From positions 148,805-212,804 of the IMG/VR virus record IMGVR_UViG_3300022752_000015: a stretch of 64,000 nucleotides of DNA; one strand, given 5' to 3'. Positions 54,228 to 64,000 of this stretch are shown here, piece by piece. Position numbers and translations under genes: made by a program. The notes beneath the pieces are model-generated. The model did not search any database. It was not told where the DNA came from and saw nothing but the letters and a program-made list of their open reading frames with translations. The stretch is from a virus. The stretch's first letter is position 1; every line of letters begins with the position of its first letter.

Positions 54228-54462
54228 TTTTCCTATGAAATGTCTCGCCCCTAGAATGAGGTACCATTGATGGACCGAATCTGGTCGTCTGCAAGTATCG
54301 CAATCGTGAATTTAAGTTCCGTTCGACCAGCAGATCTTCTTTTACGTCTTCTTCCTCCTCAATTTCATCAGATTTTTTGTCACGGATCAACGTGTACAAA
54401 CTAACAAAAGAAGTGATCAGATTGATCGAACATAGGACAAGAATCAGACTTTCGCTGGTCAC
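54202..54462 (-). CDS. Small membrane-anchored protein
   Basis: 86 residues. ESLILVLCSINLITSFVSLY is one N-terminal membrane helix, then an acidic run (DEIEEEEDVKED) and a basic tail. It overlaps the sigma gene by four bases. The layout (helix, acidic, basic) suggests an inner-membrane protein with a cytoplasmic tail. Function unknown. Confidence 0.6.
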   Translation of the reverse strand: MTSESLILVLCSINLITSFVSLYTLIRDKKSDEIEEEEDVKEDLLVERNLNSRLRYLQTTRFGPSMVPHSRGETFHRKNDNDNEKR

Positions 54463-55292
54463 GTGAGACCTTCTCCCGTTGAGATCTTCTCAACTTGCTC
54501 TTGAGTGATCTTATAAGATTCATCGCTCAACACATCGTCGACCAGCCCGAACCGCAACCTCAAAATCGCAGCTTCCTTTGGAGAAAGGCCCACGATGACT
54601 CGTTGAGCCAACTCTAACATTTGCTTGGAAGAAAAAATCTCGAGTGGATCTGACGTAGGATCCGCCTCAATCTTATCTTCAATCGTGTCAGCATCTGGAT
54701 CTGAGGACAGAGGTTGATCAAGCGAAATAATCGATCGACCACTGATCCTCATCGCATTGAAGATTGCATCTGAAGTGCCTGTCAACTCCTTCAACTCTTC
54801 AGGAGTTGGCTCACATCCCATCGCGTTCCTGTATTCTTCGGCGGCTGTCAACAACTTCTTTTGAGTATTCACGGCATGCGCGGACATTCTGATGACCCGC
54901 TTCTGCTTCAGGATGTGTTGACCAATCGCTTGCCTAACCCACCAGGTCGCGTAGGTCGAGAACCTAAATCCCTTCTTCCAATCAAACTTCTCAATCGCTC
55001 GCATCAACCCCATGTTGCCTTCTTGAATGATGTCTTCGAGAGGCATGCTGTGGTTCTTGTACTGCTTCGCCACGTAAACGACCAAACGTAGATTGGCCTC
55101 GATCAACTTTTTCTTCGCAATTGCCGCGTCAGATCCTCCTGCTTCGAGAATCTTAAAGAGCTCCATCATCTGTTCGTGCGAAAGCTGCTGGTGATTCTTT
55201 AGAGAAGAAAAGTAGCGATTCATTGAATCGCCGCCGAAGGCTGACTCTCGAGAGTTTTCTCGAGAAATTGTGCCTTGAGAACTCAAATTCAA
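54459..55292 (-). CDS. Sigma-70-type factor lacking region 4.2
   Basis: 277 residues. Region 2 is complete: EANLRLVVYVAKQYKN, LEDIIQEGNMGLMRAIEKFD and FSTYATWWVRQAIGQHI. Region 3 (PTPEELKELTG..., SLDQPLS) and 4.1 (LSPKEAAILRLRFGL) follow. After that the protein ends within 30 residues, with no region 4.2 helix-turn-helix, the part that reads the -35 box. It is therefore intermediate between RpoD/RpoS-like factors and T4 gp55. A region 4.2-like protein is encoded separately at 14935-15213. Likely directs transcription of late genes. Confidence 0.88.
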   Translation of the reverse strand: MNLSSQGTISRENSRESAFGGDSMNRYFSSLKNHQQLSHEQMMELFKILEAGGSDAAIAKKKLIEANLRLVVYVAKQYKNHSMPLEDIIQEGNMGLMRAIEKFDWKKGFRFSTYATWWVRQAIGQHILKQKRVIRMSAHAVNTQKKLLTAAEEYRNAMGCEPTPEELKELTGTSDAIFNAMRISGRSIISLDQPLSSDPDADTIEDKIEADPTSDPLEIFSSKQMLELAQRVIVGLSPKEAAILRLRFGLVDDVLSDESYKITQEQVEKISTGEGLT

Positions 55293-55652: not shown

Positions 55653-56588
55653 TTAAAGGGGCACATCAAATTTCTTAGGCATCTCGAGGACAGCGAGATT
55701 TTTCATCTTCGCCTCCACCTCTAGATCCACTGCATCGCGCCGCAGGCGCTCGAGCTGCACCGCAGGAATATAATGGATCATGTCGCTGTGCTTGCGCCGC
55801 TCGGTGAAAGATCCACCCTCCATGCCTGGCTCAGTGTTGCTGATGTGTTGCAGGGGTTTCACACCTTTAGGCCACGTCTCATCGGCTGCGTCCGCAGCCT
55901 CTGCGCCGTCCAATCCATCGTCGTTGAAAACATGATGATGCGAATCCCACACGATCGGCACACCCGTCTCCATCGACACCGGCAACAGATCCACCAACGA
56001 ATAGCACGTCTCGCAATTCTCCAGCGTCAATCGCGATCGACTAGCCTCAGGCAATGACCGAATCGCGTCGATCAGCCTCGTCTGCCGATCCGCCTTACCA
56101 CCATGCACGTTGATCGCGGCGTACGGACTCCGCGGCATCCCCATCGAATCAAACATCCACGCGTGATGCTCGAGCTCGACGATCGACTTCTCAACCACCG
56201 AGTCAGAATCCGACGACAACACGCAGAACTGACCCGGATGCGTCGTCAACCGAACGCCATGCTTCCTCGCCACCTCACCACACATCGCCAGCTCTCGCTT
56301 GAGAACATCGTTGTCCCACAATCCCCGAGGCACGCGATCATTCAACGGAAACATGGCGCTCGACACGCGAAACAACCGCACGCCACTCGCTGCCACCTTC
56401 CGTAACACGTCTCGCAACATTCGAGCATTGTGAAGGTACAACGATCGAATCGCATCCTCAGAGTATGCACCCCGCTCATATCGACCCAATTGCAACGTCT
56501 TCTCCTCCAACTCGTTGATGACCTGCAACTTGCCGCTCCGCGGCGCATTCTCGTGCCTAATCCAATGACAACAGACACCTAGTGCCAT
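55653..56588 (-). CDS. uvdE: UV-damage endonuclease (UvdE/UvsE family)
   Basis: 311 residues. The N-terminus GVCCHWI, HNARMLRDVLRKV, FRVSSAMFPL, LTTHPGQFCVLSSDS, NVHGGKADR, LTLENCETCYS and VPIVWDSHHHVFN are the conserved metal-binding and TIM-barrel motifs of this family. It nicks DNA 5' to UV photoproducts independent of the host excision system. Length matches the family. It protects phage DNA under light exposure, which suggests a sunlit or aquatic habitat. Confidence 0.92.
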   Translation of the reverse strand: MALGVCCHWIRHENAPRSGKLQVINELEEKTLQLGRYERGAYSEDAIRSLYLHNARMLRDVLRKVAASGVRLFRVSSAMFPLNDRVPRGLWDNDVLKRELAMCGEVARKHGVRLTTHPGQFCVLSSDSDSVVEKSIVELEHHAWMFDSMGMPRSPYAAINVHGGKADRQTRLIDAIRSLPEASRSRLTLENCETCYSLVDLLPVSMETGVPIVWDSHHHVFNDDGLDGAEAADAADETWPKGVKPLQHISNTEPGMEGGSFTERRKHSDMIHYIPAVQLERLRRDAVDLEVEAKMKNLAVLEMPKKFDVPL

Positions 56589-57792: not shown

Positions 57793-57885
57793 TCAACCTT
57801 GCAGCAGGCCCCACCGCAGAACCCAGCCGATCGCTGCTCCGATGATTGCTCCTTCGGCGAAGGCCGCCGCGTGATCCTTCAGCAG
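57793..57885 (-). CDS. Possible CTG-start small membrane peptide
   Basis: A 30-codon frame overlaps the stop of the gene at 57879 and is preceded by AAGGAGGG. It encodes DHAAAFAEGAIIGAAIGWVL and ends RWGLLQG, a Gly-zipper membrane helix like the 28-residue array protein at 59649. Only CTG can start it, so it is uncertain; coupling to the upstream stop is the best argument. Confidence 0.25.
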   Translation of the reverse strand: MLKDHAAAFAEGAIIGAAIGWVLRWGLLQG

Positions 57886-58244
57886 CCCTCCTTGAGGAGT
57901 CGGAAGAACTTCTTCGGAGCCGACGGCCCGATACCGAGCTTGAGGAGGAGGGGGAAGGCCGCAAGCTTCTCGTTGAGCTGCGCCGTCTTCTCCGAGATCT
58001 CGCTGATGAGCGAGCCGTTCGTCGGAGGAGACATGTGCGACCCACCGTCCCTGACGTAGGTGGCGAAGGAGGTGCAGCTCTTGGCGAGCCTCTCGGCGCA
58101 GTCGGCAAGATCCTCGCGCAGCTGGTCGATCTTGCAGGCCGCCTCACGGACCTCCAGGAAGGCGGCCGTGCTCGCGAGGTACATCAGGCCGAGCGACTTG
58201 ATGGTAGCTTCCAGGGTGGACTCGTACTTGCCGGGGTTCTTCAT
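57879..58244 (-). CDS. Array gene 1: hypothetical protein
   Basis: 121 residues from the ATG at 58244, exactly six bases after a TATACT box; the longer frame upstream is translation through the promoter and is rejected. The protein is helical (EVREAACKIDQLREDLADCA and so on), ending FFRLLKEGC. No family recognised. It is the last unit of the minus-strand array before the GC-rich terminator region. Confidence 0.7.
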   Translation of the reverse strand: MKNPGKYESTLEATIKSLGLMYLASTAAFLEVREAACKIDQLREDLADCAERLAKSCTSFATYVRDGGSHMSPPTNGSLISEISEKTAQLNEKLAAFPLLLKLGIGPSAPKKFFRLLKEGC

Positions 58245-58250
58245 GGTCCT

Positions 58251-58279
58251 AGTATACCCTTTCTCAAATGAACTTTGCA
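58251..58279 (-). promoter_or_regulatory. Array promoter P1
   Basis: -35 TGCAAA, 17-base spacer (ending GAAAGGG), -10 TATACT, then AGGACC before ATG. Predicted transcript starts at the AUG. Confidence 0.75.
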
Positions 58280-58297
58280 CCGACGGGACGAACTTTT

Positions 58298-58483
58298 TCA
58301 GCCCCACTGTTTGGGGATGGCGAGCCGCAGCTTCTCGAGGATGTCACCGTAGGCGGTCAGTTCCTCGGCATCGAATTCGCTCAAGGCCGCGCGGATCCGT
58401 TTCGCCTCCTCGAGGGAGAGGTAGAGGTTGATGCCGTCTTCCTTGGTGCCGGTGGGGGAGGTGGCGGTCCGGGTGATCTTCAT
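58298..58483 (-). CDS. Array gene 2: small hypothetical protein
   Basis: 61 residues, mostly one helical hairpin (LSLEEAKRIRAALSEFDAEE). It begins six bases after a TAAGGT box. Its TGA is followed by AAAAAGTTC, an A tract that lies about 16 bases upstream of the next -35 box. No function recognised. Confidence 0.65.
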   Translation of the reverse strand: MKITRTATSPTGTKEDGINLYLSLEEAKRIRAALSEFDAEELTAYGDILEKLRLAIPKQWG

Positions 58484-58489
58484 GGTTCT

Positions 58490-58518
58490 ACCTTATCCTG
58501 TTCTGGGGTGACTTTGCA
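58490..58518 (-). promoter_or_regulatory. Array promoter P2
   Basis: -35 TGCAAA, 17-base spacer (GTCACCCC...), -10-position TAAGGT, then AGAACC before ATG. The AAGG could also act as a ribosome site, seven bases from the start. Confidence 0.65.
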
Positions 58519-58523
58519 CCGGA

Positions 58524-58700
58524 TCAGAGGATGGGATCGACCCCTTCGATCAAGGGGTAGTAGGAGACCTGGATTCCGTGGTAGCCGGCGTCGTAGAGCT
58601 TTTGGGCTTCCTTGACGATTCGCGACTGGCGGACTTGTTTCCGCCCGGGCTTGCCCTTGGGGGTGAAGTAGGCGATCTCGTAGATGGCTTCGTTCTTCAT
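58524..58700 (-). CDS. Array gene 3: small hypothetical protein
   Basis: 58 residues from the ATG at 58700. EIAYFTPKGKPGRKQVRQSR followed by IVKEAQKLYDAGYHGIQVSY suggests a small alpha/beta domain with a basic turn, perhaps nucleic-acid binding. Start fixed by the promoter position. Unknown function. Confidence 0.65.
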   Translation of the reverse strand: MKNEAIYEIAYFTPKGKPGRKQVRQSRIVKEAQKLYDAGYHGIQVSYYPLIEGVDPIL

Positions 58701-58706
58701 GGTCCC

Positions 58707-58735
58707 AGTATATCCTTTCCTCGTTGAACTTTGCA
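58707..58735 (-). promoter_or_regulatory. Array promoter P3
   Basis: -35 TGCAAA, 17-base spacer (GTTCAACGAGGAAAGGA), -10 TATACT, then GGGACC before ATG. Confidence 0.75.
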
Positions 58736-58751
58736 CCGATCCGCGAACTTT

Positions 58752-58937
58752 TTACACACCCATCTCTTCGAGGGCGTCCTGGCGCAGGATGTCGGTCACC
58801 TCCTCGCGGAGGTCCTTCCGGGCCGCCAGCTCCCAGAGGGAGGCGGTGAGGTTGGCCTGCATCTCGTGGTCGATCTTCCCCGCGGTGAGGAGATCGGTCA
58901 CCTGGGCGATGAGCTGGGCGATGTGTTTGGCGTCCAT
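58752..58937 (-). CDS. Array gene 4: small helical protein
   Basis: 61 residues from the ATG at 58937: HIAQLIAQVTDLLTAGKIDH then helices to ILRQDALEEMGV. Fully helical, acidic. Its stop TAA merges with an A tract (TAAAAAGTTC) ahead of the next promoter. Unknown function. Confidence 0.65.
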   Translation of the reverse strand: MDAKHIAQLIAQVTDLLTAGKIDHEMQANLTASLWELAARKDLREEVTDILRQDALEEMGV

Positions 58938-58943
58938 GGCCTC

Positions 58944-58972
58944 AGTATACCCTTTCGAGGAGGAACTTTGCA
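58944..58972 (-). promoter_or_regulatory. Array promoter P4
   Basis: -35 TGCAAA, 17-base spacer (ending CGAAAGGG), -10 TATACT, then GAGGCC before ATG. Confidence 0.75.
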
Positions 58973-58973
58973 C

Positions 58974-59147
58974 TCAGCCGTTGAGCTTTTCGCCGATCCG
59001 GGCCTTGAGTTCCTCGAGGGCGACCCGGTCCCGGAGATCCTTGAGGGCAACCAACTCCTCCTTCCAGTCGGGATCACCGTTGTAGGTCTCGATCTGGGTC
59101 ACGAGTGCCTCATAGAGGCGATTGAGGTCGATCTCGTCGAATTCCAT
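58974..59147 (-). CDS. Array gene 5: 57-residue helical protein
   Basis: Read from the ATG at 59147: MEFDEIDLNRLYEALVTQIE, then TYNGDPDWKEELVALKDLRD and an acidic/basic helix ending IGEKLNG. A helical pair with a GDPDW turn, as also seen in array gene 6 (RDDPDYRSLL), so genes 5 and 6 may be distant duplicates. It is shorter than 60 residues and easily missed; the promoter element supports it. Confidence 0.65.
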   Translation of the reverse strand: MEFDEIDLNRLYEALVTQIETYNGDPDWKEELVALKDLRDRVALEELKARIGEKLNG

Positions 59148-59153
59148 GGTTCT

Positions 59154-59182
59154 ACCTTACCTCGTTCAGGTGTGACTTTGCA
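59154..59182 (-). promoter_or_regulatory. Array promoter P5
   Basis: -35 TGCAAA, 17-base spacer (GTCACACCTGAACGAGG), -10-position TAAGGT, then AGAACC before ATG. Confidence 0.65.
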
Positions 59183-59183
59183 C

Positions 59184-59354
59184 TCAGTAGGGAAGATTCT
59201 CCAGGTGCTCGATGAGCTTCACCTGGAGCTTGAGGAGCGACCGGTAGTCAGGATCGTCGCGGAGGTCGATGGAGGTGTCCAGACGCATCCTCTCCCGGAC
59301 GGAGTCGAGGCCTTCGAGGATGAGCTTCGTTTCGGAGCGGGAGAGGTGTTCCAT
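59184..59354 (-). CDS. Array gene 6: 56-residue helical protein
   Basis: Read from the ATG at 59354: MEHLSRSETKLILEGLDSVR, then DTSIDLRDDPDYRSLLKLQV and KLIEHLENLPY. The helix-acidic turn-helix plan with DDPDY resembles array gene 5. Under 60 residues but with a perfect array promoter. Unknown function. Confidence 0.65.
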   Translation of the reverse strand: MEHLSRSETKLILEGLDSVRERMRLDTSIDLRDDPDYRSLLKLQVKLIEHLENLPY

Positions 59355-59360
59355 GGTTCT

Positions 59361-59389
59361 AGTATACCTCGTTCAGGGGTGACTTTGCA
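59361..59389 (-). promoter_or_regulatory. Array promoter P6
   Basis: -35 TGCAAA, 17-base spacer of the GTCA type, but -10 TATACT, then AGAACC before ATG: a hybrid of the two element subclasses. Confidence 0.72.
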
Positions 59390-59394
59390 CCGAC

Positions 59395-59607
59395 TCAGGC
59401 CCGGTTCAGGATCCGGTCGGCAGCCCGAGCTGTCATGATGTCCCGCCCACCGAGCCCGATTCGGTTGGCCTTGCGGACCGCGGCGGCGATGGAGGTCGAC
59501 CCGAAGTACCAGCCGACCGGGATGCAGTCTTCCTTGGAGAAGCCGTAGTAGGCCACGGCGGCGTAGAGGTAGGTGCGACGTGAGGGCTTCTTGGAGGTGG
59601 TCTTCAT
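59395..59607 (-). CDS. Array gene 7: small basic protein
   Basis: 70 residues. A basic N-terminus (KTTSKKPSRRTYLYAAVAYY) is followed by CIPVGWYFGSTSIAAAVRKA and a basic helix to ILNRA. The alternating basic/hydrophobic pattern could bind nucleic acid. Unknown function. Confidence 0.65.
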   Translation of the reverse strand: MKTTSKKPSRRTYLYAAVAYYGFSKEDCIPVGWYFGSTSIAAAVRKANRIGLGGRDIMTARAADRILNRA

Positions 59608-59613
59608 GGTTTT

Positions 59614-59642
59614 ACCTTATCCTGTTCGTGGTTGACTTTGCA
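59614..59642 (-). promoter_or_regulatory. Array promoter P7
   Basis: -35 TGCAAA, 17-base spacer (GTCAACCACGAACAGGA), -10-position TAAGGT, then AAAACC before ATG. Confidence 0.65.
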
Positions 59643-59648
59643 CCGGGT

Positions 59649-59735
59649 TCAGGCGGCCATCATCCACCAGGCCGCGAAGGCCGTGGAAGCGACGGTGACG
59701 ATGGCTCCGAGGATGTCAGCTGCGGCGTTCTTCAT
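59649..59735 (-). CDS. Array gene 8: 28-residue membrane peptide
   Basis: Read from the ATG at 59735: MKNAAADILGAIVTVASTAF then AAWWMMAA. It is almost wholly a single hydrophobic helix with two Trp near the end, as in small inner-membrane peptides. It fills the gap exactly between two array promoters, and its own promoter is one of the best. Too short for ordinary gene calling. Confidence 0.6.
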   Translation of the reverse strand: MKNAAADILGAIVTVASTAFAAWWMMAA

Positions 59736-59741
59736 GGTCCT

Positions 59742-59770
59742 AGTATATCCTATTCAGATGTGACTTTGCA
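59742..59770 (-). promoter_or_regulatory. Array promoter P8
   Basis: -35 TGCAAA, 17-base spacer (GTCACATCTGAATAGGA), -10 TATACT, then AGGACC before ATG. The coding end and TGA of array gene 9 (59754-59756) lie inside this promoter. Confidence 0.75.
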
Positions 59771-59930
59771 CCGACGCAGGAGGAACCAACTCCTCCGGCA
59801 CCACATTCTCTGGAGTCAAGACGTGACCACGGTAAAATGGCTGGAGCAACACGATGGCTCCCTCGACGGTCCGCGCCCGGACACACTCGCCGGTCTCGAC
59901 GTAGACCCACCACTTCGTCTTGGTCTTCAT
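59754..59930 (-). CDS. Array gene 9: small hypothetical protein
   Basis: 58 residues from the ATG at 59930. KTKTKWWVYVETGECVRART then EGAIVLLQPFYRGHVLTPEN reads as a small beta sheet. Its last codons (VQSHI) are encoded by the -35 box and spacer of the next promoter, so gene end and promoter share bases. First gene of the second block, right after hairpin A. Confidence 0.65.
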   Translation of the reverse strand: MKTKTKWWVYVETGECVRARTVEGAIVLLQPFYRGHVLTPENVVPEELVPPASVQSHI

Positions 59931-59936
59931 GCCACC

Positions 59937-59965
59937 AGTATATCCTTTCCCGGCGGAACTTTGCA
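59937..59965 (-). promoter_or_regulatory. Array promoter P9
   Basis: -35 TGCAAA, 17-base spacer (GTTCCGCCGGGAAAGGA), -10 TATACT, then GGTGGC before ATG. Lies just downstream (leftward) of hairpin A. Confidence 0.75.
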
Positions 59966-59992
59966 CCGACCTGGGAACTTTTTCTCAGATCA

Positions 59993-60081
59993 CCCAGGAT
60001 GCCCTTGGGGAGGCCGGAGGCAATTCGACCTAGGTTACCCCATTCCTAGATCCAAGAACCTCCCCAAGGGCATCCTAGGGG
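59993..60081. repeat. Hairpin A: 18-bp stem, 45-nt loop with conserved core
   Basis: AGGATGCCCTTGGGGAGG (59996-60013) pairs perfectly with CCTCCCCAAGGGCATCCT (60059-60076), extended past a one-base bulge by three GC pairs. The 45-base loop holds GACCTAGGTTACCCCAT at 60027-60043. Hairpin B at 63901 has a different stem but the same loop length, same bulge place and same core at the same offset. It lies between the stop of array gene 10 and promoter P9. No U tract, so not a usual terminator. Confidence 0.85.
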
Positions 60082-60093
60082 TTCAGGCGTGGG

Positions 60094-60837
60094 TCAGAAC
60101 TTCTCTGCCGGGACCCACTGGACGTTACCTGCCGAGTCCTTCACCCCTGCCCGGGCGTTCCACTTGCCGCGGTACTTGGAGACGCCGATCCAGAAGACCT
60201 TGCCGGTGAAGCCGTCGACTGTGACCGTGGTGCCCTTGGCAGGGATCCGGGCCAGCTGACCCTCAGCCACCGCCTTCTCGGCCTGGAGCTTGGCGTCACG
60301 CTTAGCCTGGCGGGCGTCCTTCTTCGCCTTCTCGGCGGCGGCGATGGCAGCCTGCTCAGCGCGTTTGGCCGCCCGTTCCGCCTCGATGCGGGCCATCCGG
60401 GCCGTGTGGAATGCCTCCCAGGCGGCACATCCGTCGAGCATCTCAGGACCACCGTGGAGGAGCTGCATGTCGAAGGGATCGACCGTGGCCGACAGCGAGT
60501 AGCCGTTGCGGTCGGAGAAGAGGTTGGTGCAGTCCACCCAGGCGAACTGTTCGTGGACCTCGAGATCGCGGACCTTGTCGGCATCCCACTTGAGGGCATC
60601 GATGTAGGCGAGGATCCGCTCACCGGCGTAGTGGTGCGGGCTGGGAGGGACGTTGCAGGTGCCGAGCCAGACGAGGGCCCAGGTGCACTCAGTCGAGCGG
60701 TGGTCCGAGTAGTCGAGGGTGTCCGACCAGTTGCGGGTCTCCGTCGTCTTCTCGATCCGCAGGACGCGGTGCTGGAAGAAGACCTCCGACGTGGAGGGGC
60801 CGGGACCGTAGGCGTAGCTCTTCTTGATGATCGGCAT
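60094..60837 (-). CDS. Array gene 10: hypothetical protein with Ala/Lys coiled region
   Basis: 247 residues, the largest array protein. The first 150 residues look globular (HRVLRIEKTTETRNWSDTLD, CTWALVWLGTC, FAWVDCTNLF). Residues about 150-200 are a charged Ala/Arg/Lys/Glu helix (ERAAKRAEQAAIAAAEKAKK). The C-terminal 45 residues (GTTVTVDGFTGKVFWIGVSK) resemble a small beta barrel of the KOW/SH3 kind. Last gene of the first block; hairpin A follows 13 bases after its stop. Confidence 0.65.
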   Translation of the reverse strand: MPIIKKSYAYGPGPSTSEVFFQHRVLRIEKTTETRNWSDTLDYSDHRSTECTWALVWLGTCNVPPSPHHYAGERILAYIDALKWDADKVRDLEVHEQFAWVDCTNLFSDRNGYSLSATVDPFDMQLLHGGPEMLDGCAAWEAFHTARMARIEAERAAKRAEQAAIAAAEKAKKDARQAKRDAKLQAEKAVAEGQLARIPAKGTTVTVDGFTGKVFWIGVSKYRGKWNARAGVKDSAGNVQWVPAEKF

Positions 60838-60843
60838 GGTTCT

Positions 60844-60872
60844 ACCCTATCCTGTTCAGGGTCGACTTTGCA
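60844..60872 (-). promoter_or_regulatory. Array promoter P10
   Basis: -35 TGCAAA, 17-base spacer (GTCGACCCTGAACAGGA), -10-position TAGGGT, then AGAACC before ATG. Confidence 0.65.
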
Positions 60873-60888
60873 CCACCGCCGCACTTTT

Positions 60889-61131
60889 TCAGTCGTCGTC
60901 CACCCCGAAGGTGGAGAGGGGCTCTTCCTCCTCTTCGTCCTCACCCAACTCTTCCTCCTCCTCGTCCTCGTCGATCTCTGCATCCTCCTCCTCGAGGAAC
61001 CCCTCACCCACTGCCATCTCGGCTACGTCGGCCTCCGACATGAAGGTCAGGCAGGCCCTCACGAGCACCTCGGCGTCCAAGGCACCCTCTTCCATCATCT
61101 CCAGCAGCTTGTTCGTAACTCGTCGCGTCAT
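60889..61131 (-). CDS. Array gene 11: small protein with acidic tail
   Basis: 80 residues. A helical N-terminal half (TNKLLEMMEEGALDAEVLVR) is followed by a run of Glu and Asp from about residue 47 to the end. Highly acidic small phage proteins can mimic DNA and inhibit host nucleases or transcription factors; that is an idea only. The TGA is followed by AAAAAGT. Confidence 0.65.
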   Translation of the reverse strand: MTRRVTNKLLEMMEEGALDAEVLVRACLTFMSEADVAEMAVGEGFLEEEDAEIDEDEEEEELGEDEEEEEPLSTFGVDDD

Positions 61132-61137
61132 GTTGTT

Positions 61138-61166
61138 ACCTTATCTTGTCGGGGGTTGACTTTACA
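61138..61166 (-). promoter_or_regulatory. Array promoter P11
   Basis: -35 TGTAAA, 17-base spacer (GTCAACCCCCGACAAGA), -10-position TAAGGT, then AACAAC before ATG. Confidence 0.62.
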
Positions 61167-61170
61167 CTGC

Positions 61171-61557
61171 TCAGGGGAGGGGCTTGAACTCGGGACCCTT
61201 GCCGAAGACCTCACGGTCTGCGTAGTGCCAGCTGTAGGTAGTCCCTCGCTCGTCCCCCGGCCGAAAGAGGTAGACGAACTCGTAACCACCGTCGTCGAAG
61301 CGGATGCTGCTCGCCTGGGTGTAGGTGGCGATGTCGAGTTCCTCACCACGGTCGCGGTGGTAGGCCTGCGTGTAATCCAGGTCCTCACCGAGCGACGACA
61401 AGCAACCGAGCGCCACGAGGTCGAGCACCTGACGGACCGTCGTGTAGTGTGCTTTGAGGGTGGCACCGACGCCTTTGAGGTAGCCGTCGTGGTGGCAGTA
61501 GACGCCGGTGACAGTGCCGTCGAGGTTCTGGATGCCGATGAAAGAGCGAGTGGACAT
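61171..61557 (-). CDS. Array gene 12: conserved hypothetical (SFIGIQNLDGTVTGVYCHHDG family)
   Basis: 128 residues from the ATG at 61557, six bases after AGGAG. It is the only array gene with a standard ribosome site, and it lies 64 bases downstream of its promoter-linked ATG, behind an eight-residue leader. RSFIGIQNLDGTVTGVYCHH, DGYLKGVGATL, YHRDRGEELD belong to a small protein family I recall from phages and actinobacteria with no known function. The 178-codon longer frame is rejected because it passes through the promoter. Confidence 0.7.
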   Translation of the reverse strand: MSTRSFIGIQNLDGTVTGVYCHHDGYLKGVGATLKAHYTTVRQVLDLVALGCLSSLGEDLDYTQAYHRDRGEELDIATYTQASSIRFDDGGYEFVYLFRPGDERGTTYSWHYADREVFGKGPEFKPLP

Positions 61558-61594
61558 GAGGTTCTCCTGGACGAGGGTTGGTGGCCGGATTGGT

Positions 61595-61621
61595 TCAGAT
61601 GCCGATCTTGATCGTTTCCAT
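61595..61621 (-). CDS. Eight-residue leader peptide upstream of array gene 12
   Basis: The ATG at the array-fixed position (61621) opens METIKIGI then TGA. The true gene starts 38 bases further on with its own ribosome site. A leader at a promoter-linked AUG could attenuate or couple translation, or be a relic of a lost array gene. Confidence 0.4.
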   Translation of the reverse strand: METIKIGI

Positions 61622-61627
61622 GGTTCT

Positions 61628-61656
61628 ACTCTATCAGGTCGTTGAGGAACTTTACA
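61628..61656 (-). promoter_or_regulatory. Array promoter P12
   Basis: -35 TGTAAA, 17-base spacer (GTTCCTCAACGACCTGA), -10-position TAGAGT, then AGAACC before ATG. The TAA stop of array gene 13 lies in the -35 box. Confidence 0.62.
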
Positions 61657-62383
61657 CTGCCTCTGTGCGACGAATTGCGACCGTCGGGGGAAGGGTACCA
61701 TCCCCACACCCGTACACCCGGATCGAATAGTTGGCGATTTCCTTGGGGTAACCCCTTCGGTCAGCCCGGCGGATGTGACGGAATCGATAGGTCCCAGGAT
61801 CCGGATACTTCCCAGTCATAGAAATGTAGGTCGGGGTGAGACGTAGAGTGCGGGAGCTTCCTCCGATGCGGAGACCCTTGAAGGCCGCATCGCCGAGCGT
61901 GTCATAGATCTGCTTACCAACGAGCTGCTCTGCAGTCCGTTGTGTCCTCTCGACCACCTGTGCGGGTGACTCCATGGTCAAAGTGATCTTCTGGGGCAAC
62001 ATTGTTGTCAGCATCTCCCCCAGCATGGCAACCATCGAGACCATGTTTTCCCGCCGCTTCAACGTCTCCAGGTCCATGTCGCCACCTGAGGTCGCCACTG
62101 CGATGCGGAGGTAGTTATCCAACACCATGGCACCTTCCTCATTGAGCTGTGCCCCCTTCGGGTCCGAGTTGTAGACGACGACCAGCGTGACGGAGGGGTT
62201 GGACTCGTGCCACGCGCTCCTCGTGGGATCCAGGTTGAAGTCGTACCGAATCCCCGTCGAGCCCTCCGTCACCTCCCGAGCGAGCACGTCTTGGTTGTAC
62301 TTGTTCATGTGCGCGACCACACCGTGAGAGCCGATGATGGCCTTGGCGGTGCGGAGGGCTTCGATCCGGGGTGTGGCGTCCAT
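61652..62383 (-). CDS. Array gene 13: hypothetical protein
   Basis: 243 residues. Beta-rich and helical parts alternate (VTLVVVYNSDPKGAQLNEEG, MVSMVAMLGEMLTTMLPQKI, YRFRHIRRADRRGYPKEIAN). No domain recognised. Its stop TAA is made by the TGTAAA -35 box of the next promoter, an economical overlap. Confidence 0.65.
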   Translation of the reverse strand: MDATPRIEALRTAKAIIGSHGVVAHMNKYNQDVLAREVTEGSTGIRYDFNLDPTRSAWHESNPSVTLVVVYNSDPKGAQLNEEGAMVLDNYLRIAVATSGGDMDLETLKRRENMVSMVAMLGEMLTTMLPQKITLTMESPAQVVERTQRTAEQLVGKQIYDTLGDAAFKGLRIGGSSRTLRLTPTYISMTGKYPDPGTYRFRHIRRADRRGYPKEIANYSIRVYGCGDGTLPPTVAIRRTEAV

Positions 62384-62389
62384 GGTTCT

Positions 62390-62418
62390 ACCTTACCTCA
62401 TTCGTCGTGCGCTTTGCA
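62390..62418 (-). promoter_or_regulatory. Array promoter P13
   Basis: -35 TGCAAA, 17-base spacer (GCGCACGACGAATGAGG), -10-position TAAGGT, then AGAACC before ATG. Confidence 0.65.
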
Positions 62419-62419
62419 C

Positions 62420-62638
62420 TCAGGTCACACCCCGCCGTGACAGTTCGATGCCGAGGAGCTTGTAGGCCGTGCGCCAGTTGCGGTGGCGGGCCCGGGCGAG
62501 GACTTGGGTGCCGGTGTCCACCTCGACGTGGAAGTCTCCCTTGACGCGGACGCTGCGGACCTCAAGGGGCGTGCCCTCACTGACGCAGAAGGAAGCAAGT
62601 TCGAGAACCTTTGCCTTGGGAGAGGAGTTGCGCTTCAT
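62420..62638 (-). CDS. Array gene 14: small basic protein
   Basis: 72 residues. KVLELASFCVSEGTPLEVRS, VKGDFHVEVD, RHRNWRTAYKLLGIELSRRG form a basic alpha/beta protein. The TGA is directly followed by the next -35 box. Possible nucleic-acid binding; unknown. Confidence 0.65.
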   Translation of the reverse strand: MKRNSSPKAKVLELASFCVSEGTPLEVRSVRVKGDFHVEVDTGTQVLARARHRNWRTAYKLLGIELSRRGVT

Positions 62639-62644
62639 GGTTCT

Positions 62645-62673
62645 AACTTACCTTGTTTGAGGTTGACTTTGCA
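62645..62673 (-). promoter_or_regulatory. Array promoter P14
   Basis: -35 TGCAAA, 17-base spacer (GTCAACCTCAAACAAGG), -10-position TAAGTT, then AGAACC before ATG. Confidence 0.65.
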
Positions 62674-62679
62674 CTGCCT

Positions 62680-62952
62680 TCAGCCAACCGCGAGAGAAAG
62701 TGCGCAGTAGCGGCCGTCGGGCAGAGTACCTTCGTAGTTGAGGCTGACGTTACCCTCGCCATCGTCGGCGATCTCGACGAAGTTGAAGGCGACAACCTTG
62801 CCCGTCCGGTGGCTGCGGACTGCGACCTTGGCCGGAGCACGACCACTTTGGGGGAAGTCAATGTGGTCGCTGACCGACCCCATACCGTGAGCGGCCTTGG
62901 CGTTGTACCAGTCGAACTTCGAACCGTCGAGGATGATCGGGAAGGTGTTCAT
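62680..62952 (-). CDS. Array gene 15: small hypothetical protein
   Basis: 90 residues from the ATG at 62952. NTFPIILDGSKFDWYNAKAA then PAKVAVRSHRTGKVVAFNFV and DGEGNVSLNYEG give a beta-rich fold. No match recognised. Confidence 0.65.
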   Translation of the reverse strand: MNTFPIILDGSKFDWYNAKAAHGMGSVSDHIDFPQSGRAPAKVAVRSHRTGKVVAFNFVEIADDGEGNVSLNYEGTLPDGRYCALSLAVG

Positions 62953-62958
62953 GGTCTC

Positions 62959-62987
62959 AGTATATCCTTTCGAGGTTGAACTTTGCA
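62959..62987 (-). promoter_or_regulatory. Array promoter P15
   Basis: -35 TGCAAA, 17-base spacer (GTTCAACCTCGAAAGGA), -10 TATACT, then GAGACC before ATG. Nearly the same spacer as P16. Confidence 0.75.
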
Positions 62988-63005
62988 CTGGATGGGTTGG
63001 GGTTT

Positions 63006-63344
63006 TCAGCCGCCGTCGGCCATGCGCATGGCGGCGTAGGCGTCGGCCGGTTTGGCGGGCTTCTTGCGCTTGGCCTTGCGTTGAGCTGCCCGATCCGCGG
63101 CCGCCGAGGCGGCCGGGTTGCAGACGGCCTTCTCCTTGCCGACGGAGTAGAGGATGTTGTCCCCTGGTTGGAATGGGCCGCTGAGGACCACGACGTCGCC
63201 GTCCTCGAGCTGTCCTGCTCGGGCGGCCATTGCGAGTTTGTCGAAGGCTGCGCGGGCTGCCGGCTCGCTGAGGAAGACGTGCTGGGCGGCGGAGCCTTCG
63301 TAGGAGACCAGGACCGAGACGACGTAGATTCCGATGTTCTTCAT
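63006..63344 (-). CDS. Array gene 16: protein with basic tail
   Basis: 112 residues from the ATG at 63344; a longer frame of 230 codons runs through other array genes and is rejected. KNIGIYVVSVLVSYEG is a first strand, AQHVFLSEPAARAAFDKLAM a helix, and GDVVVLSGPFQPGDNI a strand. A Lys/Arg/Ala-rich tail (AADRAAQRKAKRKKPAKPAD) follows and may bind DNA or RNA. Confidence 0.68.
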   Translation of the reverse strand: MKNIGIYVVSVLVSYEGSAAQHVFLSEPAARAAFDKLAMAARAGQLEDGDVVVLSGPFQPGDNILYSVGKEKAVCNPAASAAADRAAQRKAKRKKPAKPADAYAAMRMADGG

Positions 63345-63350
63345 GGTTGT

Positions 63351-63379
63351 AGTATACACTTTCGAGGTTGAACTTTGCA
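63351..63379 (-). promoter_or_regulatory. Array promoter P16
   Basis: -35 TGCAAA, 17-base spacer (GTTCAACCTCGAAAGTG), -10 TATACT, then ACAACC before ATG. Confidence 0.75.
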
Positions 63380-63384
63380 CGGAC

Positions 63385-63594
63385 TCAGTACAACTTTCGG
63401 CCGTGGGACAGGACCTCCGCCGCTCGAGCGAATGCCCTCGACAGAATCTCACATTCGGCACGGTTGAGGTACAGGGTGGCGGTGCCTCCGGAATCCTTGT
63501 CCGGACACCGGCCCTTGTGCTCGTCTCCCCGGACCGTCTGGACCAGGTCGAGGCGGAGGATGTCGTTGATGATGTCGAGGGGGTCGCGGTCCAT
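63385..63594 (-). CDS. Array gene 17: small hypothetical protein
   Basis: 69 residues from the ATG at 63594. DPLDIINDILRLDLVQTVRG then GGTATLYLNRAECEILSRAF reads helix-turn-strand-helix. No known motif. Its TGA is followed within a few bases by the next -35 box. Confidence 0.65.
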   Translation of the reverse strand: MDRDPLDIINDILRLDLVQTVRGDEHKGRCPDKDSGGTATLYLNRAECEILSRAFARAAEVLSHGRKLY

Positions 63595-63600
63595 GGTCCT

Positions 63601-63629
63601 AGTATACCCTTTCTGCTGGGAACTTTGCA
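63601..63629 (-). promoter_or_regulatory. Array promoter P17
   Basis: -35 TGCAAA, 17-base spacer (GTTCCCAGCAGAAAGGG), -10 TATACT, then AGGACC before ATG. A run of seven A lies about 16-20 bases upstream, as an UP element would. Confidence 0.78.
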
Positions 63630-63648
63630 CCGGGTGGAGAACTTTTTT

Positions 63649-63837
63649 TCAGACGTCCGAAGCGATCTGCGCCAGGAAGTGGGCGAGCGTCGAGGCATCG
63701 TCGTTCTGGAGGGTGATCGAGAAGCTCGGCCCGAACACGATCCGCGTCGTGTAAGGCAGCGGACCTTCCTCCACCTCGATGCGGTACTCGCGGGAGGTGT
63801 CTGCGTCGACGACCGTGAGCTTCTTGATGTGATCCAT
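63649..63837 (-). CDS. Array gene 18: small hypothetical protein
   Basis: 62 residues from the ATG at 63837. HIKKLTVVDADTSREYRIEV then TTRIVFGPSFSITLQNDDAS and a short helix: a compact beta sheet with a helix. First gene after hairpin B and the first array unit visible at the right edge. Its TGA starts an A run that serves the next promoter. Confidence 0.65.
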   Translation of the reverse strand: MDHIKKLTVVDADTSREYRIEVEEGPLPYTTRIVFGPSFSITLQNDDASTLAHFLAQIASDV

Positions 63838-63843
63838 GGTCCT

Positions 63844-63872
63844 AGTATACCCTTTCCACTGTGAACTTTGCA
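63844..63872 (-). promoter_or_regulatory. Array promoter P18
   Basis: -35 TGCAAA, 17-base spacer (GTTCACAGTGGAAAGGG), -10 TATACT, then AGGACC before ATG. Upstream lies an A run within GCGAAAAAAAGCGC, then hairpin B. Confidence 0.78.
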
Positions 63873-63900
63873 CTGACGGTCGCGCTTTTTTTCGCGATCC

Positions 63901-63988
63901 CCTGGGATGACCCAGGAGAGGTCGGGGAATGCCGGACCTAGGTTACCCCATCCGACCCCACGGTAGCCTCTCCTGGGTCATCCTCAGG
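63901..63988. repeat. Hairpin B: 17-bp stem, 45-nt loop with conserved core
   Basis: GGATGACCCAGGAGAGG (63905-63921) pairs perfectly with CCTCTCCTGGGTCATCC (63967-63983), extended past a one-base bulge by CCTG/CAGG. The 45-base loop has GACCTAGGTTACCCCAT at 63935-63951, at the same offset (13) as in hairpin A. The stems differ from A at several places but remain complementary, so the fold is conserved. It lies just upstream of array promoter P18. Confidence 0.85.
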
Positions 63989-64000
63989 CCCAGGACCTGG

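Follow-up and report, generated by a model that had tools for sequence, protein, structure and literature searches.

IMG/VR virus record IMGVR_UViG_3300022752_000015 (212,804 bases, here G000) carries a long inverted repeat, copy A, among a run of small genes, and the question raised by this locus is what such a repeat does there, whether as a structured RNA or as a DNA site. The stretch analysed, referred to as the window, comprises positions 148,805 to 212,804 of the record (64,000 nt). A sequence-only reading had described copy A as an 18-bp perfect stem with an outer one-base bulge and a 45-nt loop, and all of these features were found: the arms lie at 59996-60013 and 60059-60076 with 45 nt between them, and beyond the bulge there are a few further pairs outward. 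RNA folding of copy A was 4.4-4.6 SD better than shuffles on either strand. The 17-base loop core that copy A was said to have in common with a second copy, B (GACCTAGGTTACCCCAT), has exactly two occurrences within the window, at 60027 and 63935, and when up to three mismatches were allowed, two matches appeared in only 1 of 100 shuffles.

Element A (59997-60075, minus strand) is 79 bp long and is laid out as arm, spacer, central motif, spacer and arm of 17-19-7-19-17 bases, reading GGATGCCCTTGGGGAGG ... CCTCCCCAAGGGCATCC on the minus strand. Its arm GGATGCCCTTGGGGAGG (59997-60013, plus strand) pairs with an inverted partner (60059-60075, minus strand), the 18th pair being 59996/60076, and GGTTACC/GGTAACC (60033-60039) is placed exactly on the dyad centre at 60036. 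Element B (63905-63983, minus strand) has the same length and layout, with arms GGATGACCCAGGAGAGG and GGTTACC/GGTAACC (63941-63947) on its dyad centre at 63944, and its outer arm is 17 bases from the record end. The arms of A and B differ in sequence, yet each pair is perfect, as the earlier reading had it. A covariance model of the element family matched only these two places in the whole 212,804-base record.

Members and layout of the element family

IMG/VR contigs were searched by exact core, stem pattern and covariance model. Further copies, whose absence would have counted against the earlier reading, were present: 21 more in seven related phage records, so that with the window's record the family numbers 23 copies in eight. 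By position they were sorted into five types, A to E. G001 (38 kb), G002 (18 kb), G003 (58 kb), G004 (73 kb) and G023 (278 kb) each have three or four, G013 (211 kb) has two and G046 (31 kb) has one. Phages of this family of uncultured large phages have up to four or five copies in the early-gene region, 1.5-7.4 kb apart (mostly 3.5-4.8 kb). Other records with a related terminase gave no convincing copy (a single match, E=0.26), a DNA similarity search of 50,697 phage records gave no match at the element at the sensitivity used, and among the named phages of the searched collections none has the element. The pattern was likewise absent from 84,980 bacterial and archaeal species genomes, and no Rfam family reached its gathering score at the element; sub-threshold matches at relaxed thresholds were unrelated microRNA-precursor hairpins. 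Two 16-mer matches (L004 and L007) were set aside as chance, there being no hairpin surrounding the core, and single half sites were not found elsewhere above background.

Eleven distinct sequences of types A-D were compared, and ten had exactly the 17-19-7-19-17 layout; one side of type D is shorter by one base. Type E has a 35-7-35 arrangement (hand count), shortened equally on both sides, and in G013_A the right half is 11 bp shorter (hand count), with arms GGTTGGCCCAGGAAGGG and CCTTTCCTGGGCCAACC. In all but one of the 23 copies the GGNWACC core begins at position 38-40, and the 7-mer is on the dyad centre in nearly every one. Between types the spacers are 24-61% identical, which reaches down to the level of unrelated sequences, with almost no change in length. 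The picture of a variable stem around a conserved loop is therefore mostly reversed over the 23 copies: the arms (GGATGACCCAGGAGAGG) are conserved better, copy A, type E and G013 having a coordinated variant, and the loop is for the most part free in sequence. Arms are near-identical among the copies of one genome, and within types they vary far less than the spacers, except for A in G000; for example, the C copies of G002 and G003 differ at 0/34 arm positions and 7/38 spacer positions. Types A, B and D have GGGGTAACC on the strand of the promoter direction and type E has it on the opposite strand. From arm centre to core centre the distance is 31 bp, or about three helical turns, so that by B-DNA geometry all three parts would lie on one face of the helix. 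Fixed dimensions filled with free sequence would be the pattern expected of a protein-bound duplex with three contact regions.

Standard pairs make up 96.9% of the arm pair cells across the family, a value matched in 0/500 shuffles, so the observation that stems differ but stay complementary holds beyond A and B. Of the 17 arm pairs, 8 are invariant and 4 have changed on both sides, 3 of these linked in the same sequences. Covariation, which had been called the hallmark of a structured RNA or a folded DNA site, is thus real as paired arm change and amounts to only about two linked events; it supports the stem, and symmetric DNA sites would show the same. Between G000_A and G003_A both arms differ and the right loop half is still alike, indicating that the arms changed in step, while G013_C has one arm of each kind and looks recombinant. 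An inner RNA fold common to all types did not emerge: beyond the arms RNAalifold gave no more than two weak pairs, and the inner folds differ by type.

The early array and its promoters

The region that holds the elements has a G+C of 0.5-0.6, against 0.31-0.50 for most of the record; along the window, G+C climbs from about 0.31 to 0.62 towards this region, unusually steep within one phage genome. The terminase is of T4 type. Judging by gene size and promoter type, the array of small genes here would be early. Nearly all of these genes share one promoter, consensus GTGCAAAGTTC-N6-GAAAGGNTATACTAGGACC, directly before the ATG; its -10 hexamer ends 6-7 nt upstream of the start codon, and the mRNAs are therefore probably mostly leaderless. 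At 57879-64000 of the window (minus strand), as in the matching arrays L101-L108, most small genes have a near-identical TGCAAAGT ... TATACT promoter. Among 21 records tested, the seven with the array promoter were exactly the seven with the element, many of the others being fragments. A phage-encoded sigma-70-like factor with regions 2 and 3 (54459-55292, minus strand) is encoded close to the array and might recognise its promoters. Also near the early region is a UV endonuclease gene of the UvdE family (55653-56588, minus strand), and early genes near elements in relatives include those for a Sir2-family protein (L105:12250-13092) and a DUF2201 metallopeptidase/VWA-like protein (L105:3-1310).

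Behind every copy with flanking sequence, a promoter of the TGCAAAGT ... TATA ... ATG type begins 8-40 bp away (mostly 28-32, measured to the -35 hexamer), and only a subset of the start-associated promoters have an element upstream. The distance from element to ATG varies from 42 to 75 bp (64-67, 75, 57, 53, 42), and with so few independent spacings any helical phasing between element and promoter is suggestive only. Downstream of element A are an A-tract (59979-59983), the promoter (59931-59966, minus strand; TGCAAAGT ... TATACT ... ATG, probably leaderless) and a 58-aa gene (59754-59930, minus strand) whose place is held by unrelated genes in most relatives. Upstream is a 247-aa gene without a family match (60094-60837, minus strand), its stop codon 18 nt before the element, and orthologues of this gene precede element A in related phages. 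Element B is followed by an A-tract (63886-63892), a promoter (63838-63873, minus strand; probably leaderless) and a 62-aa gene (63649-63837, minus strand).

The suggestion that copies punctuate gene arrays elsewhere was borne out in the related phages. In 15 of the 16 non-E copies tested, an upstream reading frame stops between 18 nt before the element and 7 nt within it; the contig end cuts the remaining copy, G000_B. Type E is situated between divergent promoters, and no gene reads into it in 4 of 5 phages; in the fifth, G001, an open frame ends 23 nt upstream, overlapping the gene on the other side, and is probably a spurious one. Since the type E core is on the opposite strand and divergent promoters are on either side, this type does not stand behind a gene end. 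At L105:9764-9860, a perfect palindrome (GAAAGTAACTTTC) adjoins type E between the divergent promoters, has a GTNAC centre in common with the element core, and is a possible second operator.

A proposed duplex DNA site, a rival RNA hairpin and gene exchange

We consider it an even call that the element, with its dyad symmetry and three parts, is a site on double-stranded DNA through which a bound protein controls early promoters. The likeliest occupant of the two inverted 17-bp arms and the central near-palindromic GGTNACC is a DNA-binding protein encoded by phage or host, or a pair of bridging proteins, and the occupied element would regulate or insulate the subset of early promoters just downstream. 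The sequences themselves show the anatomy, the rigid spacing, the conserved position and the variation in presence; the protein binding, the action on neighbouring promoters and the leaderless mRNAs are what we infer. Several observations favour such a site: the near-fixed spacing despite divergent spacers, the centred core, arms that barely vary where spacers do, the core in both orientations, which is unexpected of an RNA loop, the lack of a U-tract, and the absence of half sites above background. In type E, moreover, a promoter follows even though no gene reads in (4/5 phages). On the other side, position tells little outside type E, since any intergenic element of a unidirectional array has to come before the following promoter; the promoter spacing is inconstant, the right half of G013_A is short, element B is missing in G023, and Pfam and PHROGs searches of the array genes gave no candidate for a DNA-binding regulator beyond a weak AT-hook match.

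The main rival places an RNA hairpin at the 3' ends of early mRNAs, where it would act as a terminator, processing site or stabiliser with the next promoter behind it, much like the stem-loop half of the promoter-early stem-loops discussed below; we hold this to be possible though rather unlikely. It would account for the stop codons at or near the non-E copies, the very stable 17-18-bp stem and the arms that change together. Some room for RNA is also left by the loops of types B, C and D, which fold better on the transcript strand than on its complement. The signature of an intrinsic terminator, a GC-rich hairpin followed by a U-tract, is missing: the stem has no U-tract behind it, most copies having an A-tract instead, the terminator scan reports nothing, and terminators do not usually have a loop as long as 45 nt. 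Neither the fixed length of a loop that is free in sequence around a centred core, nor the lack of an inner fold common to the types, is expected of such a hairpin. With the core present in either orientation, and with type E downstream of no gene, structured RNA is the weaker of the two possibilities first offered. The other, a folded DNA site, comes closer, but the fixed spacing with free spacer sequence suggests protein-bound duplex DNA rather than an extruded hairpin.

The presence of the element varies, and so do its neighbours. G023 has no element B, and its empty site (L105:17900-17960), with the junction at a TCCTGG/TCTTGG repeat, has the same upstream gene, promoter and downstream gene as the B flank of G002; the element is therefore dispensable at that locus. 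Orthologous elements often retain their upstream gene and their promoter but are followed by unrelated genes. For example, at the A loci of G003 and G023 the upstream sequence is 96-98% identical, the element 100% and the downstream sequence about 50%. As special hot spots of shuffling the elements did not stand out clearly: neighbours were replaced at 5 of 12 elements and at 24 of 97 plain promoters, which is no clear enrichment. Since plain promoters often undergo such replacement as well, it is probably the promoters that act as points of exchange.

It is improbable, in our estimate, that the element is a site of DNA replication, recombination or partition served by a recombinase, initiator or centromere-binding protein. 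The repeated spacing between copies, the gene replacement right behind the element in several phage pairs, the two different arms of G013_C and the contigs of G000 and G004, which both end within 30 bp of element B, would fit such a role, but shared promoters alone can explain the shuffling, and there is no clear GC-skew switch at type E. Least probable is a selfish mobile palindrome, REP- or MITE-like and without function for the phage, for although presence or absence at locus B with short repeats at the junction and the near-identical arms within a genome are in its favour, the copies are few, keep conserved places across phages, combine strict spacing with a centre that is conserved even though the spacers have diverged, and have no consistent target-site duplication.

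Related phage modules and implications

Promoter-early stem-loops (PeSLs) of T4-type phages have reportedly been described by Arbiol (2010) and Comeau (2014). In one account (PMC4503421), a PeSL is a terminator stem-loop directly followed by a strong sigma70-like early promoter, and it mediates modular shuffling. The present element is similar in its T4-type phage (by terminase) with a plastic early region of small genes, in its inverted repeat followed at once by a predicted sigma70-like early promoter, and in the gene replacement at its junctions. It differs in having a 45-nt spacer where the PeSL has a tight loop, in a central dyad motif with fixed geometry, and in lacking a U-tract and with it the terminator signature that defines PeSLs. 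In addition, type E is found between divergent promoters, elements accompany few of many promoters, and shuffling is not clearly enriched at them. The extended start-associated sequences (ESAS) of cluster K mycobacteriophages are imperfect 17-bp inverted repeats with a 4-14-bp spacer that overlap the promoter, upstream of a subset of genes with a start-associated motif, and their authors favour sites for a DNA-binding protein (PMC3203893, PMC11373665). Here too 17-bp inverted repeats are upstream of a subset of start-associated promoters, but the arms are close to perfect, 45 bp with a centred GGTNACC separate them, the promoter is downstream and the phages are unrelated. The element may thus work like ESAS or PeSLs while failing a defining feature of each (the 4-14-bp spacer and the terminator signature, respectively), and on this basis it belongs, as a variant, with the general kind of inverted-repeat module attached to a start-proximal phage promoter.

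More tentatively, the element may represent a previously undescribed kind of viral DNA site, three-part and on one helix face, through which a single protein coordinates several early promoters across a long small-gene array, for example by looping copies together. In any event, the element is an apparent RNA hairpin that is more likely a DNA site. How large phages express the dozens of small genes of unknown function that crowd their early regions is poorly understood, and a promoter for nearly every small gene together with a few rigid 79-bp dyads would constitute a defined, testable regulatory code.
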